In this document: positions 3,079 to 20,390 of the stretch, piece by piece
How positions within the stretch are numbered: the stretch's first letter is position 1
How the letters are laid out: each line of letters opens with the position of its first letter
IMG/VR virus record: IMGVR_UViG_3300031999_000181
Coordinates: 1-24,884 of that record
Direction: 5' to 3' (one strand)
Source: a virus
Length of the DNA: 24,884 nt
Position numbers and translations under genes: made by a program
The notes under the pieces: model-generated
Databases searched by the model: none
What the model was told of the DNA's origin: nothing
Seen by the model: only the letters and a program-made list of their open reading frames with translations

Positions 3079-4692
3079 ATGCCATGGACAGTCAAAGATG
3101 TGGAAAGCCACAAAAAGGGACTTACCGATAAGCAAAAAAAGCAATGGGTAAGGATAGCCAATTCTGTATTGGCTAGGTGTATAGCCAAAGGAGGAACGGA
3201 CGAATCGTGTGCTCCAGAGGCTATTAAACAGGCTAACGGGGTAGTAAATGCTAATAGTACATATTCTATATACAAGAATAAACGGGTATTGGATTATGAG
3301 GTTAAATTAGCGGTACATCAGGAGAAACCCCACTTAGTTATCCCTGTAACTATGATCGTCGAAGGAGTATTAAACGGAAATCAAGGTCCACTGCTTCATT
3401 TAGCAGAAGAGTTTGGTCGTATTCCTGATGCATGGAATGGTATTCCTATCGTCATAGATCATCCAGAAGAAGGAGGGGTAGCGGTATCGGCAAATTCTCC
3501 AGAGATAATAGATAGTCGTACGGTGGGACGGGTATACAATACCAAACTATCAGAAAATAGTCTTAAGTCTGAGGCTTGGTTAGACGAAGAAAAGCTAAAC
3601 GAAATATCACCAGGGACTTTGGAAGAGATTAATGCTCGTAAGGCTATTGAGGTTAGTGTAGGCGTATTTACCGACAATGAAGATGCTGAAGGGGACTGGA
3701 ATGGTAAAGAGTATGCTCAAATAGCCCATAACCACCGTCCAGATCATCTTGCGATATTACCGAATGCTAAAGGAGCTTGTTCGGTAGAAGATGGATGTGG
3801 ATTAGGAGTTAATGAAGTTGAATTTACTTTTAAAGGAGATACTTTACTAGGAATCCTCAAGAAAGTAAATCGTTCAGGATATTCGGTAAGTAAAATAGGA
3901 GCTTTCCAAGAGGATGTCGAGGAAGAGGATGATGCTGATGAAGTAGGGTATAACTCCCTAATGCAAGCCGTTTATTCAGCCCTTAACTCTATGGGTAGCG
4001 AGGGACATTGGTATTATCTAGAGGAATGTTACTATGATTATCTGATCTATTCCGAAAGCGGAATGAAGACGGATAACAAAATGTATAAGCAGGGTTACGA
4101 GTTCAAAAGCGGGAAAATTGAGCTAACAGGAACTCCTGTCGAAGTCCACAAAGAAGTGGCATACGTGGTCAATAAGACTATGACCAGAAATAAAGTTAAT
4201 GTTAATTTAAAAAAGGAGGTTGAAATGGCAGAAAACTGCACCCCCTGCATTAAGAAGAAAGTCGATGAACTGATCGCAAACGGTCAGGGTAGATGGACGG
4301 AAAGTGACAGGGAATTTCTTCAGGCTTTGGACGAGAAAAGGTTGGATCAACTAGCTCCCGTGGTAAAAGAAGTCGAGAAGATTGTCGAAAAAGAAGTTCA
4401 GGTTAATGTGCTTTCAGAGGAAGATAGGAATGCTTTGGCTACCTATAAAGCTGAACAGAAAGCAAAACGTGAACAGTTGATTACTGATATACAGACCAAT
4501 ACTTCGGTAGAAATATGGCCTGTGGAAACTCTCAATGGTATGACCGATGACGTCCTAAAAAGACTTTTCGAGTCAACGAAAAAAGTAGAAGTTGGAGATT
4601 ATTCGCTAAACGGCGGTATGCCTGTAAATACCAATGCTGGTGGAATTGAGCCTCTGCTTCCTGCTGGAATGGAATTTGAAACAGCTAAATAA
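3079..4692 (+). CDS. Prohead protease (DUF2213) fused to capsid scaffold
   Basis: 537 residues in three parts. Residues 1-55 resemble a small ChaB-like module (MPWTVKDVESHKKGLTDKQK, then cysteines C35 and C45). Residues about 70-255 match the DUF2213 phage protease family, with candidate catalytic H128 in VIDHPEE and S193 in EVSVGVF, then the conserved NHRPDHLAILPNAKGACS stretch. Residues about 383-537 are charged and partly coiled coil (DEKRLDQLAPVVKEVEKIVEKE) and match the scaffold seen at the end of such proteins. The protease would clip scaffold and perhaps capsid protein during prohead maturation. It precedes the decoration and major capsid genes, as expected. The catalytic residues are my assignment by motif. 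Confidence 0.82.
   Translation: MPWTVKDVESHKKGLTDKQKKQWVRIANSVLARCIAKGGTDESCAPEAIKQANGVVNANSTYSIYKNKRVLDYEVKLAVHQEKPHLVIPVTMIVEGVLNGNQGPLLHLAEEFGRIPDAWNGIPIVIDHPEEGGVAVSANSPEIIDSRTVGRVYNTKLSENSLKSEAWLDEEKLNEISPGTLEEINARKAIEVSVGVFTDNEDAEGDWNGKEYAQIAHNHRPDHLAILPNAKGACSVEDGCGLGVNEVEFTFKGDTLLGILKKVNRSGYSVSKIGAFQEDVEEEDDADEVGYNSLMQAVYSALNSMGSEGHWYYLEECYYDYLIYSESGMKTDNKMYKQGYEFKSGKIELTGTPVEVHKEVAYVVNKTMTRNKVNVNLKKEVEMAENCTPCIKKKVDELIANGQGRWTESDREFLQALDEKRLDQLAPVVKEVEKIVEKEVQVNVLSEEDRNALATYKAEQKAKREQLITDIQTNTSVEIWPVETLNGMTDDVLKRLFESTKKVEVGDYSLNGGMPVNTNAGGIEPLLPAGMEFETAK
4213..4220 (+). promoter_or_regulatory. Internal Shine-Dalgarno site for the nested scaffold
   Basis: AAGGAGGT lies inside the protease frame, four bases before an in-frame ATG at 4225. 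It is as strong as the sites of the abundant structural genes nearby. Confidence 0.7.
4225..4692 (+). CDS. Nested in-frame scaffolding protein
   Basis: An independent start, Met383 of the protease, has its own AAGGAGGT site and would yield a 155-residue protein sharing the C-terminus of the protease. It begins MAENCTPCIKKKVDELIAN and continues into a strongly charged helical stretch, then a low-complexity end. Nested scaffolds made this way are known in lambda (C/Nu3) and Mu (I/Z). Many more scaffold than protease copies are needed per prohead, which an internal start would supply. The protein is probably degraded by the protease before DNA packaging. The start is seen in the sequence; the function follows from family knowledge and position before the capsid gene. 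Confidence 0.75.
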   Translation: MAENCTPCIKKKVDELIANGQGRWTESDREFLQALDEKRLDQLAPVVKEVEKIVEKEVQVNVLSEEDRNALATYKAEQKAKREQLITDIQTNTSVEIWPVETLNGMTDDVLKRLFESTKKVEVGDYSLNGGMPVNTNAGGIEPLLPAGMEFETAK

Positions 4693-6401: not shown

Positions 6402-6752
6402 ATGGAAAGAAATAGTAGTGAAAGGATTCGTTGGAAAAAAATAGGAGGTGGTTCATTAACATTGCTTGGAAAGTTTATCAAACCTAATGATATATTTACC
6501 GCTTATCCTCATCAAATACCTAAACAATTCAGAGATGTTATTATACCTTTGGATGAAATTAGGGAGCAGTCAGTTCCTAAAGTAGAACCTATAAAAACTA
6601 CTTATAAAGTAGTTCCTAGAGGAGCTAGTAAATCTATGTTTGACGTAGTGAACGAGGCAGTTACTAATGAAGAAGGCATACCCAAACGTATTAACGATAA
6701 ACCTCTTACAAAAGAAGTGGCGGAACAACTTATTCAAGACTTGGCAAAATGA
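6402..6752 (+). CDS. Small virion-region protein of unknown function
   Basis: 116 residues. It starts MERNSSERIRWKKIGGGSLTL and contains GKFIKPNDIFTAYPHQIPKQFRDVIIPL, a compact beta-like module of a kind encoded just after capsid genes in several phages. The second half is lysine-rich and ends in a helix (LTKEVAEQLIQDLAK). There is no membrane segment. It has no Shine-Dalgarno site; its leader is an A/T run, like that of the tail chaperone gene. It overlaps the first sugar gene by ATGA, so it is either the last head gene or the first of the cassette. A head or connector accessory is possible, but I do not assign a function. Confidence 0.55.
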   Translation: MERNSSERIRWKKIGGGSLTLLGKFIKPNDIFTAYPHQIPKQFRDVIIPLDEIREQSVPKVEPIKTTYKVVPRGASKSMFDVVNEAVTNEEGIPKRINDKPLTKEVAEQLIQDLAK

Positions 6753-7450
6753 TATGGAGTGTCCCTAGAATGTGGGCAGGAGGAGATGTTTGGATACTTG
6801 GGGGAGGTCCATCAGTACCTAAACAATTTAGTATTCCCGAATCGTTGGTACATGCGGTTGTAGCAGGGACTTCTCCGCCAAGCGTCTATTCTCCTTATAT
6901 GTCTTTTTTACACGACAAACATGTTATAGGGATAAATGTAGCGTATTATATTGGAGATTGGATAGATATGGTATTTTTTGGGGATGGTTCTTTCTTTACA
7001 AAGCATAAAGATAATCTCGCTCGATTTCCTGGACTAAAAGTATCGTGTGATCCTAATTGTAATAAAATACCATGGATTAAATATCTAGTGAGAGATACTT
7101 CTCATCCCAAAGGAATTTCTATTAAAGCGGGAGCAGTTAGTTGGAATTGTAATAGTGGATCTGCAGCTATAAGTGTAGCTGTACAGGCAGGAGCAAAAAG
7201 AATTATACTTTTAGGTTTTGATATGAGTTTGGATAATAATATACAACATTGGCATAATATGTATGGGAAGCCTACTGATCCTAAGACGGTATCAAAATCA
7301 TTATTAACATTTGCTAGTCATTTATCGGGATTTCCTGTAATTGCACAAGATGCTAAGAGATTAGGAGTGGAAATTATAAATGCTTCTCCTAATAGTACTA
7401 TTCCACAATTTCCTAAGTTTTCTGTAAAGGAATTGATAAATAATACGTAA
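6749..7450 (+). CDS. DUF115/Maf-like glycosyltransferase
   Basis: 233 residues. An N-terminal nucleotide-sugar type loop is visible (VWILGGGPSV, about 14-23), then GINVAYYIGDWIDMVFFGDGSFF, and a conserved SGSAAISVAVQAGAKRIILLGFDM stretch at 136 onward, ending GVEIINASPNST. This pattern occurs in DUF115 proteins, including the Maf transferases that attach nonulosonic acids to flagellin serine/threonine, and is reminiscent of GT42-type sialyltransferases. If it acts similarly, it could join the first or a capping sugar to a protein. It is short compared with Maf proteins, so it would be only the catalytic core. It starts within the ATGA overlap with the previous gene and leads the cassette. Substrate is unknown. 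Confidence 0.6.
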   Translation: MIWSVPRMWAGGDVWILGGGPSVPKQFSIPESLVHAVVAGTSPPSVYSPYMSFLHDKHVIGINVAYYIGDWIDMVFFGDGSFFTKHKDNLARFPGLKVSCDPNCNKIPWIKYLVRDTSHPKGISIKAGAVSWNCNSGSAAISVAVQAGAKRIILLGFDMSLDNNIQHWHNMYGKPTDPKTVSKSLLTFASHLSGFPVIAQDAKRLGVEIINASPNSTIPQFPKFSVKELINNT

Positions 7451-8244
7451 TGAATACGATACGATTAATGGGTGGATTAGGTAATCAAATGTTTCAGTAT
7501 GCTTTAGGGAGAGTCCAGCAAGAACATGGTATAGAGGTTCTCTATGATCTTACCTGGTTTGATCGTGGAAGGATTCCTAAAAGATTATATACTTTAGATA
7601 AGTTTGAAATTAGTATATCTACTACATATAGAGGTAGGAATGGGTATCATAAATATGTAACGGATAAGAAAAAAGGTATATTAGACCTGGATTTACTTTT
7701 ATTGGATAATACTTATTTTGAAGGATATTGGCAATACTTAGCTTATTACAAGGATTATTTACCTATATTTGAGAAAGAATTTAGGGTTAAACCAGAGTTT
7801 TATTCTAAGGAATATATTTACTGGAGGGATCAAATTAAAACTCGTATTGAATCAGTAGCGATTCATGTACGTAGGGGAGATTACATAGGACATAATGGTT
7901 TTCACGAACTTCCTTTCTCTTATTATTTAGAGGCTTTGCAGAATACTCCAGGCAGTATATTTATATTTAGTGACGATATTCCTTGGTGTAAAGATACTTT
8001 TAAAGAAAGTTATTTTGATCGGGATGTAAATTTTGTACATTGTAAAGATTATTTGGATTTAGAATTAATGAGTTTTTGTAATCATAATATTATTTCTCAT
8101 AGTACATTTAGTTGGTGGTCGGCTATGCTAAATAGAAAGGATAATAAAAAAGTAGTTGCTCCCAAGTATTGGATTACCCTTGAAAAAGATAGAGCTACTT
8201 ACGATAGTAAACTTCACTATCCTGAGCAGTGGATTAAGATATAA
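7450..8244 (+). CDS. Alpha-1,2-fucosyltransferase, GT11 family
   Basis: 264 residues, close to the usual length for bacterial GT11. All hallmark motifs are present: GGLGNQMFQYA at 8-18, IHVRRGDY at 138-145 (the arginine-rich GDP-fucose site), and ISHSTFSWWSAML from about 215. GT11 enzymes move L-fucose from GDP-fucose to a galactose-type acceptor in alpha-1,2 linkage and act in the cytoplasm or on the inner membrane face. No GDP-fucose synthesis genes are nearby, so the donor would come from the host. The gene starts on the last base of the preceding stop. Base composition is very AT-rich (11 GC of 60 at 8041-8100). This is the most secure sugar gene here. Confidence 0.92.
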   Translation: MNTIRLMGGLGNQMFQYALGRVQQEHGIEVLYDLTWFDRGRIPKRLYTLDKFEISISTTYRGRNGYHKYVTDKKKGILDLDLLLLDNTYFEGYWQYLAYYKDYLPIFEKEFRVKPEFYSKEYIYWRDQIKTRIESVAIHVRRGDYIGHNGFHELPFSYYLEALQNTPGSIFIFSDDIPWCKDTFKESYFDRDVNFVHCKDYLDLELMSFCNHNIISHSTFSWWSAMLNRKDNKKVVAPKYWITLEKDRATYDSKLHYPEQWIKI

Positions 8245-8247
8245 GTA

Positions 8248-8997
8248 ATGTATGATATATTAATTACAGTAGCAGAAAAAGATTTTAACAAACTACGGTT
8301 TGTTATAAAATCTATTTATACTAATCTAGAAGGATTTAAAGACATTATAGTTATAGCAAACACTACTTTGCCCTATCGTTATCGTATATCTAGTATAAAG
8401 TACCTTACGGATAACGATATGTTTTACGTTGATCCCGCATTGTTTGAAGGCTACGCAATTAAAAGACGAGGTTGGTATATACAACAATTTATTAAACTCT
8501 TTCAACAAGTAACCTCTGATGAATATTTAGTAGTAGATGCCGACGTTTATTTCAATAGGAAGGTTGAAGTTATAAAGGATGGTATTCCTGTATTTTTATT
8601 AGGAAAGGAGCAATATCATAAACCTTATTTTATGTATACTGATATGATGTTTGGTTTTGATAGAGTTTATCCTTACTCGTTTATTAATGAGGTTATGTAT
8701 TTTAAACGGGAATATATAGAACATATGGTAGCTTCCAAAGAGATGAAAACGTCTGATTTTATAAAAGATTCTATTAATATTATAAATTTTATTAATCACC
8801 CTACTTCTAGTTTTTCTGAATATGAAACCTATGGTAATTATGTAACTAAGTATTTTCCAAACGCTTATACTTATCAGTATATAAAAACGCATTCCGTAGG
8901 AGTAAAACGTATTTGGGAAGAATTTGAAGTTCATCGTTTTATAAATAAGTTTGAAGGTCAGGATTATGATAAATTAGCTTTACATACATGGTTGTAG
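8248..8997 (+). CDS. GT-A type glycosyltransferase, DUF6492-like
   Basis: 249 residues. The N-terminus reads as a GT-A fold start (YDILITVAEKDFNKLRFVIKSI). A GWYIQQFIKLF motif (about 75-85) and the metal-binding DADVYF at 97-102 follow. This combination is typical of DUF6492 glycosyltransferases, which are found in polysaccharide clusters and use a metal-bound nucleotide sugar. The C-terminal part, with an HPTSSFSEYETYGNY stretch, fits the same family. The donor and acceptor cannot be read from sequence. It begins three bases after the fucosyltransferase stop and overlaps the next gene by ten bases. Confidence 0.75.
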   Translation: MYDILITVAEKDFNKLRFVIKSIYTNLEGFKDIIVIANTTLPYRYRISSIKYLTDNDMFYVDPALFEGYAIKRRGWYIQQFIKLFQQVTSDEYLVVDADVYFNRKVEVIKDGIPVFLLGKEQYHKPYFMYTDMMFGFDRVYPYSFINEVMYFKREYIEHMVASKEMKTSDFIKDSINIINFINHPTSSFSEYETYGNYVTKYFPNAYTYQYIKTHSVGVKRIWEEFEVHRFINKFEGQDYDKLALHTWL

Positions 8998-9878
8998 TAT
9001 TGTTTCATAGTGGTAGGGGAGCATTACCTGAATATCAGGAGAGTATGTTTAAACAACTACGGGTGTTTAATCCTACTATACCCGTGTATTTTTTAACAGA
9101 CACCGAATTTTTAAATGATCCTATGTTTGAGAAATATTCAATAAAAGTAATAGATAAGGAAGGTTATTATGGAGTCAAGGTAGATTCTTTAGAAAGAATG
9201 TATGGTAGGAAACCTAATGATTTTTGGATGATAACTACTACTAGGTTTATTTATATAGAAAATTTTATACGGGAACGAGGTTTGATAGATATATATCATT
9301 TTGAAAACGATGTTATGGTTTATTACGATATACAGACTTTACATAATATGTTTTCCGCTTTATATCCTAATTTAGCGATTACCGTTGGAGGACCAGATAA
9401 AGCTATAACTGGATTTATGTATATTAAGAATTATCAAGCACTATGGAGTATGACACATTTCTTTGTTAATTTATTACGTAGATATGGACTAAAGGCGACT
9501 AAAGCCAAGTTTGGTATGGATATGGTAAATGAGATGACTTTAATGAAAGTTTACCATACTATGTTTCCTAAAAGGATGCCTTCCTTACCTATCCTACCTT
9601 TTGGGGAATGGAGTAAAGCGTATTTTTATTTTGATTCTATTTTTGATCCTGCTTCGTATGGGATGTTTGTAGGAGGAAATGCTCAAGAGAAAACTCCTGG
9701 TTGTAAACCAAAGGATCATTACATAGGACAATTATTAATAGAACATCCAGAGTACGAAGTTATTTGGAAAGAGGACGAGGAAAAGAGAAAAATACCTTAT
9801 TTTAAGTATAATGGTAAAGAGGTTAAAATAAATAATTTGCATATACATTCTAAGAATTTACATTTATATTTAAGTTAA
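8988..9878 (+). CDS. Putative GT-A-like glycosyltransferase
   Basis: 296 residues. It opens with a strand-helix pattern suited to a GT-A Rossmann fold (VVVLFHSGRGALPEYQESM) and has a DXD-like motif in YHFENDVMVY (E106-N107-D108), where glycosyltransferases bind metal and nucleotide sugar. After that come a GFMYIKN segment and, near the end, NLHIHSKNLHLYLS. This arrangement resembles uncharacterised transferase-like proteins in surface polysaccharide loci. Ten-base overlap with the upstream transferase gene and a one-base TAATG junction downstream place it inside the same transcript. No substrate can be assigned. Confidence 0.55.
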   Translation: MVVVLFHSGRGALPEYQESMFKQLRVFNPTIPVYFLTDTEFLNDPMFEKYSIKVIDKEGYYGVKVDSLERMYGRKPNDFWMITTTRFIYIENFIRERGLIDIYHFENDVMVYYDIQTLHNMFSALYPNLAITVGGPDKAITGFMYIKNYQALWSMTHFFVNLLRRYGLKATKAKFGMDMVNEMTLMKVYHTMFPKRMPSLPILPFGEWSKAYFYFDSIFDPASYGMFVGGNAQEKTPGCKPKDHYIGQLLIEHPEYEVIWKEDEEKRKIPYFKYNGKEVKINNLHIHSKNLHLYLS

Positions 9879-10543
9879 TGGGTTCTTATTTGGAACATAC
9901 GTTTGTTAAGCATATAGATCAAAAATCTATTAATACTATAATAGAATGTGGTAGTAGAGATTGTTTGGATGCTATTGCTATGAATGAGTTTTATGTTCCT
10001 AATATTATATATGCCTTTGAATGTAATCCAGAATCTATATACGTTTGTAAAGAAAATATTAAAGGTATAAAAAACATTAAGTTAATTACCAAAGCGGTAC
10101 ACAAAGATAATGGTAAAGTCGTTTTTTTCCCTACGGATATGGAAGCCTCTTTGGATAAGAATATAGGAGCATCTTCTTTACTTTGGCATAGGGATAATGA
10201 GAAAGAATTCAAGCAGAAAAGAATTGAGGTAGAAGGTATTCGATTAGATACTTTTATGGAAAAGCGTAATATATCTAAAGTAGATTTACTATGTATGGAT
10301 CTTCAGGGAGCGGAATATTTAGCGATAGAAGGGTTGGGAAAACGAATTAAGGATGTGCATTATCTTATTACTGAAGTAGCTTTTCGTAGTTTCTACCACA
10401 AGGATAAATTAGCGGAGGATATTGTACGGTTATTGGATCATAGAGGATTTAAGTTTATATCTTCTAATCATGATATAAATAGTCATAGCGGATTTGGAGA
10501 TGCTTTATTTTTAAATAAAAATTATGGATTGGATACAAGGTGA
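9878..10543 (+). CDS. FkbM-family methyltransferase
   Basis: 221 residues, normal for the family. The SAM-binding glycine motif is IIECGSRDCLDAI (21-33), the ribose-binding acidic motif is YAFECNPES (45-52), and the FkbM signature MDLQGAEYLAIEGLG sits from 140. FkbM enzymes are SAM-dependent O-methyltransferases, and in sugar clusters they methylate hydroxyls of glycan residues. Methylation could cap the chain or hide it from glycosidases. The start shares one base with the previous stop, and the end overlaps the next gene by twenty bases. The family is well supported; the sugar target is inferred from the neighbours. Confidence 0.85.
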   Translation: MGSYLEHTFVKHIDQKSINTIIECGSRDCLDAIAMNEFYVPNIIYAFECNPESIYVCKENIKGIKNIKLITKAVHKDNGKVVFFPTDMEASLDKNIGASSLLWHRDNEKEFKQKRIEVEGIRLDTFMEKRNISKVDLLCMDLQGAEYLAIEGLGKRIKDVHYLITEVAFRSFYHKDKLAEDIVRLLDHRGFKFISSNHDINSHSGFGDALFLNKNYGLDTR

Positions 10544-11249
10544 ACGGTTTATAGGATTGGCGGACAATAAGAAAATTTTCTATTGCCATACATACGACGT
10601 ACCTGGATTTTTACATCACCCACCAAAAGATGAATTTATTCTTATCTCCCATAATGGGGATCATTGTATTCATATTGGTTATAAAGTACCTAATAATTTA
10701 ATACATTGGTTCGCTCAGAATGTTAATCGCTCCCATCCTAAAATAGAATCTATTCCTATTGGTTTAGAGAATAACAAATGGTTCCCTAATCTAAAGAAAA
10801 GAGAGAAGATGGAAGCGAAGTTACGTACAAATAAGCACTTTCATAATCTTGTCTATATGTGTCATACAATAGATACTAATTTTAAAGAGCGAAAAGTTTT
10901 ATATGAAATGTTCGATGAAACCCCTTGGATTACAACCCATAGGAAGGAATTTTTTGATGATTATTTGGATAATTTATATAATCATACCTTTATGATTAGT
11001 CCCGCTGGTAATGGTTTAGATACGGTAAGAACTTGGGAATGTTTATATATGGGAACCTATCCTATCGAGAAACGGAATATTAATAATCAATTTTATACTG
11101 ATCTTCCAATATGTTTTGTAGATAATTGGGAGGAGATAACTGAAGAATTTTTAGATAACTGGTTGGTAGAAAATGCTAATAAAGAATGGAATATGGATAA
11201 AATATATTTTGAATATTGGAAAAATAAAATTTTAAATTATGATAAATGA
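10524..11249 (+). CDS. Exostosin/GT47-like glycosyltransferase
   Basis: 241 residues. The key feature is SPAGNGLDTVRTWECLYMG (159-177), a motif of GT-B type transferases related to exostosin and similar families, where this loop and the following glutamate contact the nucleotide sugar. Before it lies IGLENNKWFPNLKKREK, then NLVYMCHTIDTNFKERK, matching the linker strand order in such proteins. The protein is short, so probably only a reduced catalytic core is present. It overlaps the FkbM gene by twenty bases and the next gene by eleven. Donor and acceptor are unknown. A GT10-like relationship is the main alternative. Confidence 0.6.
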   Translation: MDWIQGERFIGLADNKKIFYCHTYDVPGFLHHPPKDEFILISHNGDHCIHIGYKVPNNLIHWFAQNVNRSHPKIESIPIGLENNKWFPNLKKREKMEAKLRTNKHFHNLVYMCHTIDTNFKERKVLYEMFDETPWITTHRKEFFDDYLDNLYNHTFMISPAGNGLDTVRTWECLYMGTYPIEKRNINNQFYTDLPICFVDNWEEITEEFLDNWLVENANKEWNMDKIYFEYWKNKILNYDK

Positions 11250-11838
11250 TCGTTATTTAAGGTACGTACAAGAACCGTATAAATTATCCTACATTTCTTA
11301 TATGAAAGGAGAACCTATTCATGCTTATAGTTCTCACCAACCTGTATTAATTCATATGTTAAATACTATTACCGAAGGGGATGTATTAGAATTTGGTATG
11401 GGTCATCATAGTACTCCTATCATGCATATTATTTGTACTATGCAAGATCGTAGTTTATTGAGTATAGATACAGATAAAATATGGTTTCGTAAATTTACTC
11501 GTTATATCTATGGGAAGCATACTGCAATGCATATAAATAAAAATGTACTTCTAGAACCATATCACGAATTTTATAAAGGAAAATATTCTATTATTTTTGT
11601 AGATGGAGCACCGGCAGAGATACGTCAACCTTTTATTGATGAGGTTCAGAACATAACGGATTATTTAATTGTTCACGATTCCGAGAGTATACCAAACGGA
11701 GTAGACGATGCATACCATTATAACTTCTCTATGTTTAAACATGTATTACATTTTAAAGGAGGACTTGCCCCTGGAACATCGGTACTTTCTAATTTAGATA
11801 AAATTGATGAGCGAATATTGGAAGTTTTTAAACAATGA
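11239..11838 (+). CDS. Rossmann-fold, methyltransferase-like protein
   Basis: 199 residues. A VLEFGMGHHSTPIMH segment (49-63) looks like motif I of class I SAM-dependent methyltransferases. It is followed by LLSIDTDKIW, which could be the acidic motif II, and IIFVDGAPAEIRQPFI, a typical motif IV strand ending in DG. The order and spacing suit a small methyltransferase, although the H56-H57 substitution after the glycine motif is unusual. Family assignment (Methyltransf_24-like) is tentative. In this cluster a second glycan O-methyltransferase is the natural guess. It overlaps both neighbours (11 bases upstream, ATGA downstream). Confidence 0.55.
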   Translation: MINDRYLRYVQEPYKLSYISYMKGEPIHAYSSHQPVLIHMLNTITEGDVLEFGMGHHSTPIMHIICTMQDRSLLSIDTDKIWFRKFTRYIYGKHTAMHINKNVLLEPYHEFYKGKYSIIFVDGAPAEIRQPFIDEVQNITDYLIVHDSESIPNGVDDAYHYNFSMFKHVLHFKGGLAPGTSVLSNLDKIDERILEVFKQ

Positions 11839-13109
11839 ATGAGCAAAGGACAATAGTATTGGTTTTACGTAGCGGAGGTGATTTTTCATTTCAGGACGTA
11901 GAACTTATTGTTGGGCATATCATTTCTAAATGGAGATCAAAAATACTTCCCCGAATTATTTGTTTATGGGATCAAGCTTCTATGGAATACGATTTAGGGA
12001 ATATACATTTAATTCCGCTTATTAACAATTTACCAGGAACGTGGGCTAGAATACAGTTGTACAGTCCTGAAATGGAAAAATATCGTCCTTTTCTATACGT
12101 AGATTTAGATACGGCTATTATACAATCTCTAGAAAATATATTTGATTTAATTACAGATCCAACTCAATTTATTACTTTGGAAGACTTTTGGCAAAAAGGT
12201 AAATTAGCAACTCCTTTAGTTTGGTTCCCTGTTAATTGTGCTAAGATAACGAAAGTTTATACTGCGTTTAGAAAGCCAGAAGGATTTCGTATGGATTACT
12301 TTTTACAAAAGCATATTAAGGCTGATAGGTTTTGGCAACAAATGACTAATTTTATAATTGATTTTAAATCAAATAAGAATGATTTGTTAATGGATTTACC
12401 TAAAGATACAATATTGGTATGTTTTCACGGTAAACCTCGTATCTATACGGCAGCAGGATATATACCTTGGGTTCGTATTTACGTAGGAACAAATTACGTT
12501 GCACCTACACTTGCTAATAAGGTTACGGTAATAATACCCTATAAAATAGATCGAGGATGGCTTAAAGACGCTGTAAACAGTGTTCCTAAAGGAGTTCAAC
12601 TTTTAATAAGTCAGGGAGAGGGTAATTGGCCAGAGAATTTTAATAAGGTTTGGGCTCAAGTAGAAGGTGAATATATTCGTTGGTTACACGAGGATGATAT
12701 GTTGACTTCTAATAGTATATCCGATTCGGTGAATGCTATGGATGATCGAGACGTAGATTTTATACACGGCAATGCTATTGAAATATATCAAGGTACCAAT
12801 AGAAGGAAATTTTGGAGGCCACGAACTCCTTATCCTACTGTAAAGGATATGCTTCAGAGAAATAGATTACATAGTGCTACTATGATGTATCGTAAAAGCG
12901 TATTTGATAAAGTAGGGTTATTAGATGAAACATTGACCCTTTCGGAAGAATATGAATTTAATATTCGTTGTTTAAAAGCAGGATTAAAGTTAGGTTATTG
13001 TGATTCTTTTTTAGCGTATTATCGTAGGCACGCACAACAGAAAGTACGACTATTAAAAAAACTAGATATATTAAAAGAGCATAATTTACTTTTAAAGCGA
13101 TACGTATGA
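11835..13109 (+). CDS. Two-domain glycosyltransferase: GT8-like plus GT2
   Basis: 424 residues in two transferase-like halves. Residues 1-225 include TWARIQLYSPEM and the DXD motif YVDLDTA (D90, D92), as in GT8-type proteins or related nucleotide-diphospho-sugar transferases. From N228 a second domain starts NKVTVIIPYK, contains WLHEDDML (E286-D287-D288), and ends with EEYEFNIRCLKAG and an AYYRRH motif, all typical of GT2. Each half probably adds a sugar, so a single polypeptide could lay down a disaccharide unit. Both metal-binding motifs look intact. ATGA overlaps join it to both neighbours. Sugar types cannot be told. Confidence 0.8.
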   Translation: MNEQRTIVLVLRSGGDFSFQDVELIVGHIISKWRSKILPRIICLWDQASMEYDLGNIHLIPLINNLPGTWARIQLYSPEMEKYRPFLYVDLDTAIIQSLENIFDLITDPTQFITLEDFWQKGKLATPLVWFPVNCAKITKVYTAFRKPEGFRMDYFLQKHIKADRFWQQMTNFIIDFKSNKNDLLMDLPKDTILVCFHGKPRIYTAAGYIPWVRIYVGTNYVAPTLANKVTVIIPYKIDRGWLKDAVNSVPKGVQLLISQGEGNWPENFNKVWAQVEGEYIRWLHEDDMLTSNSISDSVNAMDDRDVDFIHGNAIEIYQGTNRRKFWRPRTPYPTVKDMLQRNRLHSATMMYRKSVFDKVGLLDETLTLSEEYEFNIRCLKAGLKLGYCDSFLAYYRRHAQQKVRLLKKLDILKEHNLLLKRYV

Positions 13110-13834
13110 CAGATAAATTACCTATATTAGTAACTGGTTGTGCCAGAAGTGGAACTAGCTCCATCGCAGGAATAATTAATATATGTGGTGCTTTTGGAGG
13201 AAATATGGCCGTGGGGAAAAGTAATAGTCGGGGAATGTTTGAAAATAGTAGAATTAGAAATACTTTGGTAAAACCTTATTTATTACGTATGGGAGCTGAT
13301 CCAGAAGGGCAATATCCTTTACCCTTTTCTATTTCTATTCCTACTATTTGGAAGCAAGAAGTAGATCAAATTATAATAAGTGAAGGCTATAAGGGGGGTG
13401 ATTGGATGTATAAGGACACCCGAATGGGTCTTATGTGGAAAGTATGGAATTATGCTTATCCTAATGCGAAATGGGTTATCGTACGTAGGCGTACGGGAGA
13501 TGTAATACAATCATGTATTAAAACAGGTTTTATGAAAGCCTTTAAGAATCAGGATAATTTAAAAGCAATAAATTTAGATTCAGAAGAAAAGGCGTGGTTA
13601 TGGTGGATTCACGAATACGAAAAACGGTTTACCGAGATGGTAATGGAAGGGGTGAATAGTAAAATTGTTTGGCCAGAGCGTATGATAGATGGAGATTTTA
13701 GGCAATTATATGAACTTATAGAGTGGTTAGGGTTAAAATGGAATCCTGAAGCTATGACACTTATTGAATCTTTATTATGGGGAAATAAACAAAAAAGAAA
13801 GGAGGCTACATATGGCACGGGTAACGTCGGATGA
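13106..13834 (+). CDS. PAPS-dependent sulfotransferase-like protein
   Basis: 242 residues. The N-terminal TGCARSGTSSIA (10-21) matches the 5'-phosphosulfate binding loop of sulfotransferases. WVIVRRRTGDVIQSC from W123 gives the 3'-phosphate site, with R128 and S136 at the expected eight-residue spacing. Such enzymes transfer sulfate from PAPS to sugar or protein hydroxyls. As last gene of the sugar cassette it may sulfate the finished glycan. No PAPS-making genes are present, so supply would depend on the host. A P-loop kinase is less likely because the loop is GxARSGTS rather than GxxxxGKS. Its C-terminal codons overlap the next gene by 23 bases and contain that gene's ribosome site. Confidence 0.72.
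   Translation: MTDKLPILVTGCARSGTSSIAGIINICGAFGGNMAVGKSNSRGMFENSRIRNTLVKPYLLRMGADPEGQYPLPFSISIPTIWKQEVDQIIISEGYKGGDWMYKDTRMGLMWKVWNYAYPNAKWVIVRRRTGDVIQSCIKTGFMKAFKNQDNLKAINLDSEEKAWLWWIHEYEKRFTEMVMEGVNSKIVWPERMIDGDFRQLYELIEWLGLKWNPEAMTLIESLLWGNKQKRKEATYGTGNVG
13798..13805 (+). promoter_or_regulatory. Shine-Dalgarno site of the first neck gene
   Basis: AAAGGAGG lies inside the sulfotransferase frame, six bases before the ATG at 13812, and shows that translation begins there rather than at the upstream TTG 13764. Confidence 0.7.
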
Positions 13835-15579: not shown

Positions 15580-15999
15580 ATGGCAAGTTTGGCAGTGTCT
15601 GGTGTAGGTAGTCAATTTCTAAAGGGATCTGCTGCGTTAGCGGAGATTACTAATATCACTGGACCATCTATGACTAGGGATTTCATCGATGTTACATCGT
15701 TGGATTCTGAAGATGGCTACCGAGAGTTTATTACGGGATTTAGAGATGCGGGAACGATCTCTCTTAATATGAACTTTACGGAAGACAGTTATGCGGTAAT
15801 AAAATTGGACTTTGAAAGTCCTGTTGCACAGACCTACTCGGTTATATTAGGTAATTTGGAAAATACTACCTTTACGTTCCAGGGTTTGGTCACAGAATGT
15901 CCTTTAACTATTCCTGTGGATGATAAAATATCCGTGGATGTAACTATCAAAATTACTGGAAAGGTAACTATGGTAGGTGTGGATAGTTCTGGTTCGTAA
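15580..15999 (+). CDS. Major tail tube protein
   Basis: 139 residues from ATG 15580. The stretch GPSMTRDFIDVTSLDSEDGYREFITGF followed by RDAGTISLNMNF is typical of siphovirus tail tube proteins of the lambda gpV type, as is the beta-rich remainder. The tube is a stack of hexameric rings through which DNA passes. It follows a strong Shine-Dalgarno site and is followed by the chaperone pair and the tape measure, the standard order. No sheath protein is present, supporting a non-contractile tail. The last residues are VDSSGS, a likely exposed tail end. Confidence 0.82.
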   Translation: MASLAVSGVGSQFLKGSAALAEITNITGPSMTRDFIDVTSLDSEDGYREFITGFRDAGTISLNMNFTEDSYAVIKLDFESPVAQTYSVILGNLENTTFTFQGLVTECPLTIPVDDKISVDVTIKITGKVTMVGVDSSGS

Positions 16000-16057: not shown

Positions 16058-16483
16058 ATGGGAAATTTTTTAGATCGTGCAAAACTTTTGCAAAAAGAAG
16101 AAATTAAAATCTTAAAGGTAGATTTACCGAGTGGAGATTTTGTTTATGTACGGCAGATGTCTGGACGGGAACGGGATCAATTCGAGCAGTCCTTACTGAA
16201 ATCAGTAAAGAACGCTAAAGGGGAAACAACTTTTGAACAATCATTAGATGATTTTAGGGCAAAATTAGCCGTAGCATCTCTTTGTGATGAACAAGGAAAT
16301 TATCTTTTAGTCGCTAGGGATATTCCAATGTTGAGTCAGAATATGACGGCTACTTCGTTGGATAAGATTGTAACGGAATCTCAGAAACTTAATAGTATAT
16401 CAGAAACGGATAAGGAGAATTTAGTAAAAAACTCCGTAGCCGACCAAGTCGGCAATTCCAATTCCGTCTCTGCAGAGAATTAG
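16058..16483 (+). CDS. Tail assembly chaperone, short form (gpG-like)
   Basis: 141 residues. It starts MGNFLDRAKLLQKEEIK and continues to VDLPSGDFVYVRQMSGRERDQFEQ, the style of small tail chaperones that coat the tape measure and guide tube polymerisation. The tail end of the frame, after a slippery site at 16426-16432, is serine- and asparagine-rich and is bypassed in the longer product. It has no Shine-Dalgarno site; the leader is A/T-rich. Its place between tail tube and tape measure is the normal gpG position. Confidence 0.75.
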   Translation: MGNFLDRAKLLQKEEIKILKVDLPSGDFVYVRQMSGRERDQFEQSLLKSVKNAKGETTFEQSLDDFRAKLAVASLCDEQGNYLLVARDIPMLSQNMTATSLDKIVTESQKLNSISETDKENLVKNSVADQVGNSNSVSAEN

Positions 16484-16878
16484 GTGTAGAGCATCCTGAT
16501 CGCCTAATAGACGATCAGATAGAGGTTTACCATATTTTTAGTATTCCTTTTATGTGGAAAAAGAAAAAAGGGCTAACTATGGATCAACTCTTAGAATGGG
16601 AAGCGTATGATAGATTAGATCCAATAGGTACTTGGAGGGAGGATTTTAGGATGGCTTGTTTAGCATCTGTGATATCAAATTTGGCGATAAGGATTAATAC
16701 CAAGAATGGTAAATTAACCAACATTGGAGATTTTATGCCTAATTGGGATCAGGGTGATAAGTCCTCTGAGCAAAAACAAACTCCAGACCAGATGAAAAAA
16801 GTACTTCTAGACATAGCTAATTCCATAAATAAGAAGATTGAAAGTAAAGAGCGTAAAAAACCTAATACCAATAAGTGA
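16058..16878 (+). CDS. Tail assembly chaperone, frameshifted long form (gpGT-like)
   Basis: A -1 frameshift at 16426-16432 would fuse the first 125 residues of the gpG-like protein to 148 residues read from 16432 to the TGA at 16876-16878, making 273 residues. The extension carries LCRELGVEHPDRLIDDQ, then MDQLLEWEAYDRLDPIGTWREDFRMA, which matches the T-domain signature of lambda-like chaperones. The extension frame is open from 16414, overlaps the gpG stop, and lacks a credible own start (ATG 16552 has no ribosome site and would drop conserved sequence). In lambda, gpGT recruits tail tube protein to the tape measure. Frameshift inferred; signals described separately. Confidence 0.75.
16412..16453 (+). 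promoter_or_regulatory. Programmed -1 frameshift signal of the chaperone pair
   Basis: Three parts are visible in order. AAGGAG (16412-16417) is an internal Shine-Dalgarno-like stimulator eight bases upstream. A-AAA-AAC (16426-16432) is a slippery heptamer in the zero frame of the upstream gene. After a six-base spacer, GCCGAC/GTCGGC (16439-16444 and 16448-16453) forms a perfect six-base-pair stem with loop CAA. This is the arrangement known from E. coli dnaX. It is a read-off of the sequence; efficiency is unknown. Confidence 0.75.
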
Positions 16879-19800
16879 TGGCTGACATAGGTACTTTGAC
16901 AGTTACGTTAGCAGTGGATGATAAGGGACTTATGGCTGCTAGAATATCCTTGATGAATCTAAATAAAAGTATTCAGGGTACTTCAAAAAAGGCTGCTGAT
17001 CTGGCTACTCGTATGCAAACAATGGGTCGTCGTATGATGAACTTTTATAGTTTCGGTTATCGAGCGACTATGATGCTAACCGTTCCTTTGATATTGGCGG
17101 GTAGGGCAGCTTTCAAATTAGCGAAGGACTTCGATGCAGCGATGAATAAAATTGTAGGTTTAGTAGGGATTGCTAGAGAGGAGATGGAGAAATGGAAAGG
17201 GGAGATTTTAACAATGGCTCCTGTAGTAGGTAGATCTCCTAAAGAGCTTGCCGATGCTTTATATTTTGTTACCTCTGCTGGTTTTAAATCATCGGAGGCT
17301 CTTAAGATAGTTCAACAATCAGCTATGGCTGCAGCAGCAGGTCTAGGAGAAACTTCCGATATTGCACAGGTAGTTACCTCTGCTATGAATGCTTATAGAA
17401 AAGAGGGACTAACTGCTGCAAGGTCAGTCGATATTCTCGTAGCAGCCGTTCGAGAAGGTAAAGCGGAAGCACCCGGATTCGCCTCTGCTATTGGTCAGGT
17501 AATTCCTATCGCTGCAGAGCTAGGAGTTTCTTTCGATCAGGTAGCAGGAGCGATGGCTTCCATGACCTTGACGGGTTCTAGTGCAGCCAACGCAGCAGTA
17601 TATTTAAAGGGTATACTCAATGTACTTATAGATCCAGCTACGGAAACAGAGACTTTATTACGTAAAATGGGAACATCGGCAAACCACTTACGTAATACTC
17701 TCAAAGGGCAAGGACTTATGGCTACCCTTCAGGAGATACGGGTACTAACCGAGAAATGGGGAACTAGTATTGCCGGACGGGTATTTCCCAATATCCGAGC
17801 TTTAATAGGTTATTTATCTTTGACGGGAGAGAATCTAGAGTATAATATGGGTGTAATGGCACGGGTTAAGAACTCCTATGGTGATGCAGCAGTAGCTTTT
17901 AAAGAGGCAGGACAGTCTATACAACAGCGTTGGAATGTAGCCGTAGCGAAAGGACAGGTCGCAACAATCACTTTAGGTAAAGCTATTTCTAATACACTTT
18001 TACCTATGTTTGAATGGTTAATGAAACTTGTTGCTAGAGTAGGCAAGAGTTTTGATAATTTATCTGAATCCTCTAAAAGACTTATTGTTGTATTTGGAGG
18101 AATCCTAGCCGTACTGGGACCATTGAATTTAGCTTTTGCTTTCCTAGTAGGGAATATCTTACCAGGAATTATTCGTGGGTTTGATAAAATAAGTATAGGG
18201 ATAAAAAGAGTTAAAAATTTATTTGCGGGAATGACTCTGGCTAAATTAGGAGTTTGGGGGTTAATTGCCGCAGCGATTGTGGGTATAGGTATTGCTCTTT
18301 CTAAATCCAAAAATAGATTAAATGATTTCCAAGTAGCGGAAAAGAAAGTCAATGGTACTTTATTAGAGGAAGCAGTAGCTCTAAATTATATTTTCAATAG
18401 GGCAAAACAAACTACACAAGGTACCATAGAACGTAAGAATGCTATTCAAGATATTAATTCCCGATATGGAGAGTACTTACCCAATTTACTTAAAGAGAAA
18501 AGTTCATTAGAAGATATTGCCTCTGCACAAGAGAAAGTTTCAAGATATATGTCTGGTAAAATAAGAATGGAAGGATATATAGAGGCTTTACAGGGTAAGT
18601 ATAAGGAGAGTGCGGAAGTCTTTACCAAACAAATGGGAGATTTTGCTAGCGTCATACAAAAGACGTATAAGGCAGAAGGTCTTTCCGATTTTATTCAGGA
18701 ATTATACGATAGGTTAGATACTGTTGTAGAGCAAGGAGGAGGTACTCTTAATAAAAATTCCAAATTATTAGCTCATGAATCCGTGGACATTTGGAATAAG
18801 TGGGTAAAAGGAATTTATGAAGCTACAGGAGATATTACATACAGTTGGGATGCTTTTTATAAAAGTCTAAAAAAAGTAGGCATGGTACGTGCGGAGGCTA
18901 GTCCTATTATAGCTTTAATGAATGCGGAGATAGAAGCAGCTCGTAAACGTACAGAGGAATTAGAGAAAATAAAAGCAGCACAAGCAGATGCAGAGTATGA
19001 AGATCCAATATTACAGAAATGGCGTTTAGACATCCCTACGGAATTAAAAGAAATTGCAGAGAAAGTTAAATACCAAGGAGGGTATTATGATGATGTATCG
19101 GAGAGAATCCAGTTATGGGTAGGACATTTGGAAGAGGCTAATATTCGCATAGCCCAAATAAAAGATAGTACGGATTATTTAGATAAACGAGCTTTGGTAG
19201 AAATTAATAATAGAGCCAAAGAGTTTGCAGCTAATATATTAGATGTAAAAACAGAGGCATTCGTACGGCAAGTAAAGTTTATAGACGAGCAAGCTAAATT
19301 AATGGGTAATGCATTTGAATACAGTGCCGCAAAGTTAGCTTTGGTTGTAGAATACTTGGATGAATTCAAGAAAGGATTGAATACTACAGGAGGGGCAATA
19401 AATTATTTGGGTATGACTGGAAAGTTTTTATATGCATACTTACAAGTGTTAGAAGAATTTTTTAAGCAATTTACTTTAGAAAAGATAGTAGAAGAAACTG
19501 AGAAGGCGTCAGTAGAATGGATAAATATGCAAAAAGTTTCTGGTAATTTAACGTATTCATTAGAAGAATTAAATGTAAGAATATCTGGGCAGAAAAAATA
19601 TTTAGCTCAACTTAGTATTTTCTATGCTTTAGGAGCTGTTTCTATGGCTAAGTATAGAGAAGAAGCTGAAAAGTTATATCAATTAGAAAGTACTCAAAAT
19701 TTAACTACTGCTCAACAGAGTTTACAAACTATTAAAGATATGGCAACTGCCATTGGACCACTAACCGATGGAATGGAAGAATATAGTGCTGTATTGTCCG

Positions 19801-20390
19801 TAGTAAAGCAAAGACTAGAATTTTTATCTGTAAATAGACAAACAGAGACAGAAGAATTTAAACAGTTAACAGCGCAATATCGTGCTCTTCTTATAGGGGA
19901 ACAAGTAGCTAATAGGGTATCAGAGGCTATGGGAAATATGTTTGATGTAATTACGGATGGTACTTTAACGGCACAAGAGCGTATGAAGGCAATGGGAGAA
20001 GTTATCCATAAAGCAATAATATCACTTTTGCGAGATATTTTAGTAGCTATAACTAAGGCACTTATTCTTAAGGCGGTAATGAGTGCTGTATTTCCTGAGT
20101 ATGGGGCTACGATGGGAGGAGGAGGAATAGGAGGTATTATAGGAGCAATATTTGGAGGAAAAATGCCGGTTGCTCCTGAATTTGCTAAAGGTGGGGTAGT
20201 GCCTCCTGGATACCCAAATGATACATACCAAGCACGACTTACCTCAGGGGAAACTATCTTACCGAAGGGGTTTAATATGGGTCAATTATCTCGTCAAACA
20301 ATAGAGTTTGAACCCGTAGAGATCGTAATTAAGGATAATACTTTAACAGGATTTTTGCGTAAGGCAACCAAGAAAAATAGTATATACTAA
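16878..20390 (+). CDS. Tail tape measure protein (TP901-1 type)
   Basis: 1170 residues from the ATG at 16878, which overlaps the chaperone stop (TGATG; a GTG at 16875 is a less likely start). The N-terminal half has the tape measure domain (PhageMin_Tail) around residues 70-280, including GFKSSEALKIVQQ and GETSDIAQVVTSAMNAY. Two hydrophobic segments lie at about 400-435 and 457-475, probably inserting in the membrane at DNA entry. Long alpha-helical coiled stretches follow, and the C-terminus ends with AKGGVVPPGYPNDTYQARLTSGE, a usual feature of tape measures. Length sets tail length, here about 170-180 nm by the usual 0.15 nm per residue. No lytic domain was noticed. Confidence 0.9.
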   Translation: MADIGTLTVTLAVDDKGLMAARISLMNLNKSIQGTSKKAADLATRMQTMGRRMMNFYSFGYRATMMLTVPLILAGRAAFKLAKDFDAAMNKIVGLVGIAREEMEKWKGEILTMAPVVGRSPKELADALYFVTSAGFKSSEALKIVQQSAMAAAAGLGETSDIAQVVTSAMNAYRKEGLTAARSVDILVAAVREGKAEAPGFASAIGQVIPIAAELGVSFDQVAGAMASMTLTGSSAANAAVYLKGILNVLIDPATETETLLRKMGTSANHLRNTLKGQGLMATLQEIRVLTEKWGTSIAGRVFPNIRALIGYLSLTGENLEYNMGVMARVKNSYGDAAVAFKEAGQSIQQRWNVAVAKGQVATITLGKAISNTLLPMFEWLMKLVARVGKSFDNLSESSKRLIVVFGGILAVLGPLNLAFAFLVGNILPGIIRGFDKISIGIKRVKNLFAGMTLAKLGVWGLIAAAIVGIGIALSKSKNRLNDFQVAEKKVNGTLLEEAVALNYIFNRAKQTTQGTIERKNAIQDINSRYGEYLPNLLKEKSSLEDIASAQEKVSRYMSGKIRMEGYIEALQGKYKESAEVFTKQMGDFASVIQKTYKAEGLSDFIQELYDRLDTVVEQGGGTLNKNSKLLAHESVDIWNKWVKGIYEATGDITYSWDAFYKSLKKVGMVRAEASPIIALMNAEIEAARKRTEELEKIKAAQADAEYEDPILQKWRLDIPTELKEIAEKVKYQGGYYDDVSERIQLWVGHLEEANIRIAQIKDSTDYLDKRALVEINNRAKEFAANILDVKTEAFVRQVKFIDEQAKLMGNAFEYSAAKLALVVEYLDEFKKGLNTTGGAINYLGMTGKFLYAYLQVLEEFFKQFTLEKIVEETEKASVEWINMQKVSGNLTYSLEELNVRISGQKKYLAQLSIFYALGAVSMAKYREEAEKLYQLESTQNLTTAQQSLQTIKDMATAIGPLTDGMEEYSAVLSVVKQRLEFLSVNRQTETEEFKQLTAQYRALLIGEQVANRVSEAMGNMFDVITDGTLTAQERMKAMGEVIHKAIISLLRDILVAITKALILKAVMSAVFPEYGATMGGGGIGGIIGAIFGGKMPVAPEFAKGGVVPPGYPNDTYQARLTSGETILPKGFNMGQLSRQTIEFEPVEIVIKDNTLTGFLRKATKKNSIY

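Follow-up and report, generated by a model that had tools for sequence, protein, structure and literature searches.

A predicted −1 frameshift signal with two stimulators in the tail assembly chaperone gene of an uncultivated tailed phage

Between the genes for the major tail protein and the tape measure protein, this virus carries two overlapping reading frames, the second of which encodes a T-like domain and lacks a start codon of its own. How, then, is the T domain translated? The window (the whole analysed stretch of 24,884 nucleotides) was searched for the elements of a recoding signal, and these were followed through related phages.

Gene arrangement and elements of the signal

The 0-frame gene (16058-16483, plus strand) encodes a gpG-like tail assembly chaperone of 141 aa (phrog_344, E 4e-13); its match to Phage_TAC_13 was weak and below cutoff. 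Upstream lie a tail terminator gene and the gene for the major tail tube protein (15580-15999, plus strand; Phage_TTP_11/12, phrog_158), and downstream is the gene for the tape measure protein (16881-20390, plus strand; phrog_991, E 7e-45; PhageMin_Tail, E 6e-25). This is the place of G/GT in lambda-like tails. The T domain (16432-16878, plus strand; PF06223, Phage_tail_T, Minor tail protein T, E 3.8e-16) lies in the −1 frame, which begins directly past a stop at 16411, stays open until the stop at 16876-16878 and contains no ATG, GTG or TTG before 16552. A −1 shift near the end of the gpG-like gene, by which alone the T domain would be reached, gives a 273-aa fusion of the gpG-like protein with Phage_tail_T ending at 16878, and the fusion shares its first 125 aa, as far as the slip site, with the short form. 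The first-pass annotation had proposed such a fusion, and both the family matches and the frame agree with it. A sequence search of G and T against solved structures returned no match.

The elements of the signal are all on the plus strand. The sequence AAGGAG (16412-16417), just past the −1 frame stop, resembles a Shine-Dalgarno (SD) sequence and is read as the Lys-Glu codons AAG GAG. It stands 8 nt before the slippery heptamer A AAA AAC (16426-16432), whose 0-frame codons are AAA (16427-16429) and AAC (16430-16432). A spacer of 6 nt (16433-16438) leads to a hairpin (16439-16453) with a perfect 6-bp stem, GCCGAC (16439-16444) with GTCGGC (16448-16453), and a 3-nt loop, CAA (16445-16447); its folding energy is −9.8 kcal/mol (z = −4.6 relative to shuffles). 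The 0-frame stop TAG (16481-16483), 16 codons past the heptamer, closes the short form, and this distance is the same in 35 of 65 relatives. The positions and frame given by the first-pass annotation for these elements were exact to the base. SD-like sequences 6-17 nt before the motif are reported to be stimulatory in E. coli, a range that includes the 8 nt seen here (PMC4066793). Both strands of the window contain 284 heptamers of the form X XXY YYZ; five have an upstream SD and one a stem, and only that at 16426-16432 has the two together.

Conservation and selection at the site

Scans of IMG/VR with G as the query returned 56 loci, and a profile scan yielded at least 496 relatives, from which 80 were retained. 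An in-frame heptamer and a long −1 frame were found in 163 of the 166 loci with G. A closer inspection of the three exceptions reveals that one is a contig ending before the site (L058), and that the others, Rhodococcus phage REQ1 and L066, are distant (28-37% identical) and lack a standard heptamer. Hence no near relative keeps the gene pair without a slippery site, an outcome that would have spoken against the first-pass annotation. The counts were redone leaving out loci fetched by a motif-containing pattern, with the same outcome. Among 88 distinct sites gathered without the motif, 81 read A AAA AAC, five G GGA AAC, one G GGT TTC and one A AAA AAT; the five G GGA AAC sites are from Streptomyces phages, at the homologous place. 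Around the slip site, synonymous variation is depressed; over most of the gene it is near background, the exceptions being the start of the gene and a small number of individual codons. In some relatives (L034:4001-4419 and L062:4001-4413) a 0-frame TGA directly follows the heptamer, so that G ends at the slip site; a stop likewise follows directly in phage Loki and Moraxella phage Mcat9 (TAA).

Sixty-five lineages, less than 80% identical in G, were aligned without gaps from the SD-like element to T, the spacer being of constant length. The covariation and tree change counts still take in four lineages found by the motif pattern, and the tree used for change counts was built without the signal region. 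The stem positions are paired in 86.2% of alignment cells, compared with 72.5% after shuffling, and the covariation score of 0.298 exceeds the 0.067 (sd 0.013) of shuffled alignments, none of 500 shuffles reaching it. Arg-Pro-x-Arg is encoded in the T frame across the stem, and two of the stem's pairs, 16440:16452 and 16443:16449, join third codon positions of that frame. The former pair takes CG, GC and TA with at least 15 changes between Watson-Crick types on the tree, and the latter GC, AT, TA and CG with at least 22. When T-frame codons were resampled synonymously, a mean of 2.50 stem pairs was obtained (the maximum of 2000 means being 3.03) against 5.03 observed, and 33 of the 61 lineages have a perfect stem where 0.2 would be expected. 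Moreover, the stem arginines use CGN in 63/65 and 62/65 lineages (background 43%), and the serine at 16447-16449 uses AGY in 30/30 (background 45%). On the strength of the covariation, the excess over resampling and the biased Arg and Ser codons, we conclude from this alignment that the stem is under selection as RNA and does not simply follow from the protein sequence.

The SD-like element is likewise kept beyond what codon use predicts: of the 52 lineages that encode Lys-Glu at this place, 38 use AAG GAG, where 6.7 would be expected, and the 8-nt register before the heptamer is kept in most relatives. The first-pass annotation had named conservation of the three parts in related phages as a check, and heptamer, covarying stem and AAGGAG all come through it. 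About a quarter of the lineages (15/65) have no good stem and about a third (23/65) no AGGAG, so judging by these losses the family does not strictly require either stimulator. The missing stems probably also explain why RNAalifold predicted no consensus structure from all 65 sequences. In one subgroup (L060, L056, L059) T reads RPER instead of RPSR and most of the stem is lost; the Glu codon sets A opposite C at 16444:16448, so that stem and protein sequence are tied. Linked loss of the two stimulators appeared likely by eye and was dropped, joint loss across relatives being non-significant (odds ratio 2.7, p = 0.17). Repeated changes were counted on the tree, at least 10 in stem strength and at least 12 in the SD.

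A short palindrome, TCTCTGCAGAGA, is present at 16467-16478, and the first-pass annotation had suggested that it may add structure. This found no support: its positions pair in 61.9% of cells across relatives (60.9% shuffled) and the covariation score is 0.136 (0.121 shuffled), which is no covariation beyond shuffles. It falls in codons of the conserved stretch RLCRELG and is best read as coding sequence.

Alternative explanations and proposed mechanism

Three other explanations of the T frame or its flanking elements were considered. AAGGAG would in isolation be a good SD, and could serve as the ribosome binding site for T made separately by internal initiation. However, in all 65 relatives the T frame lacks a start codon from its upstream stop as far as the slip site, so internal initiation cannot supply the conserved T start, and a later start would drop the conserved stretch RPxR.F.FRL; we consider this explanation highly improbable. 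Equally improbable is slippage of RNA polymerase, rather than the ribosome, on the run of six A that precedes the frame change. Polymerase slippage usually occurs on longer runs, the Streptomyces phages have G GGA AAC in place of the A run, and the selection seen both on the stem, 6 nt past the heptamer, and on the SD-like element, 8 nt ahead of it, fits a ribosomal event.

It could also be argued that the slippery site is real but that conservation of Lys-Glu and Arg-Pro-x-Arg residues brings the SD and stem along with it. These residues are indeed conserved, and one or other stimulator is absent from some relatives. Against this stand the many independent compensatory changes in the stem, its number of pairs relative to synonymous resampling and the excess of AAGGAG over codon use, and we regard it as very unlikely. 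Taken together, gene order, protein families, the startless T frame, the heptamer, the codon choice in the SD and the compensated stem point to a programmed −1 ribosomal frameshift of the lambda G/GT type with two stimulators. This is also what the first-pass annotation had read here, and we hold it to be very probably correct.

We infer from these parts that ribosomes slip here at some level, that the SD and stem promote pausing, and that both products act as chaperones. Most ribosomes would finish gpG at the stop ending at 16483. A minority would pause with AAA in the P site and AAC in the A site, the anti-SD of 16S rRNA pairing with AAGGAG behind the paused ribosome and the hairpin ahead blocking mRNA entry; the tRNAs would then move back by one base to pair with AAA AAA, after which reading in the T frame would yield the G-T fusion. 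If lambda is a guide, the T part would recruit the tail tube protein, the G part would bind the tape measure protein, and the G:GT ratio would matter for tail assembly. Strong SDs precede the window genes at 3079, 4705, 13812, 15141 and 15580, and since several of the phage's own genes carry them, the host ribosome probably uses anti-SD pairing. The heptamer itself is reported to be functional in E. coli, where A AAA AAG is the stronger motif (PMC4066793).

Comparison with known frameshift signals

The G/GT tail assembly chaperone frameshift of phage lambda was reportedly described by Levin in 1993 and by Xu in 2004, and is covered in a review (PMC5009743). It resembles the locus here in gene order, in two products from one start, in a −1 shift near the G end and in having a T domain of the type described by the Pfam model Minor tail protein T. 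Lambda differs in its heptamer, G GGA AAG, and in having neither an SD nor a strong stem seen adjoining it, whereas A AAA AAC in the window has both; the signal is thus more elaborate than that of lambda and unusually complete. The first-pass annotation had likened it to E. coli dnaX, and the likeness holds for the layout, with an upstream SD-like element, an A6-based heptamer and a stem-loop about 6 nt downstream. It does not extend to the heptamer (A AAA AAG in dnaX), the SD spacing (about 10 nt in dnaX, 8 nt here) or the stem, which at 6 bp is short, unlike that of dnaX. Nor does it extend to location and product: dnaX stops one codon after shifting (PMC5009743) and its product is shorter, whereas here the shift lies at the end of a tail gene and lengthens the product. 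IS911, of the IS3-family transposases, also has an SD-like GGAG and a stem-loop by its heptamer and a longer fusion product (PMC4066793, PMC5009743), but the proteins are unrelated and the IS911 structure is more elaborate, with a three-way junction. The frameshift is therefore a well-supported case of the known lambda G/GT kind, with stimulators like those of dnaX and IS911.

Wide conservation of G/GT frameshifting has been described for long-tailed phages (PMC5009743), and tests on a GeneTack cluster of phage tail chaperones yielded 6-7% (PMC3711429). Acinetobacter phage Loki and Caulobacter phage phiCbK, the latter compared by its slip site, likewise have A AAA AAC in the tail chaperone gene (PMC5313236, PMC3556154); in Loki an 8-bp stem lies downstream and no SD-like element precedes the site. 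Moraxella phage Mcat10 has a stem only and no SD, and in phiSASD1 the homologous place shows an SD-like sequence but no good stem. In Mcat10, a distant T relative (L089:800-900), A AAA AAC is followed by a spacer of about 5 nt and the hairpin GCCGAC-AAAA-GTCGGC, the stem sequence being the same as in the window. Nine gene clusters with both predicted stimulators have been listed (PMC4066793). No description of both conserved stimulators in a tail chaperone gene was found in the open-access papers searched, and no priority is claimed.

The locus offers a bacterial −1 frameshift site with a stem that many independent compensatory changes support and an SD-like element maintained far beyond what codon usage would give. 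Relatives that have both stimulators, a single one or neither form a natural panel for how stimulators set the G:GT ratio; among them, L044 has no stem, L065 a weak SD, and L040 neither a stem nor a close SD. Tentatively, a large group of uncultivated siphophages may carry this dual-stimulator signal in the tail chaperone gene, with changes in stem and SD perhaps tuning G:GT to tail length or host, a reading we hold to be plausible though somewhat doubtful. For annotation, T in this large phage group should be given as a fusion product and not as a separate gene from 16552.

Matches to metagenome-assembled genomes fell in three bins from three unrelated phyla (Firmicutes, Melioribacter, Gallionellaceae), and no host is claimed from them. 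SD use within the window is mixed: several structural genes have AGGAGG-type sequences, while AT-rich leaders that lack an SD precede the gpG-like gene and a block of genes for glycan and transfer enzymes. This block, of about 7 kb (6749-13834), lies between the capsid and tail genes and contains family 11 and family 2 glycosyltransferases, an FkbM methyltransferase and a sulfotransferase-like gene, which suggests glycosylation of the virion or the host surface. As its leaders are SD-less and AT-rich, in contrast to the AGGAGG-type structural genes, the block may come from a different source.
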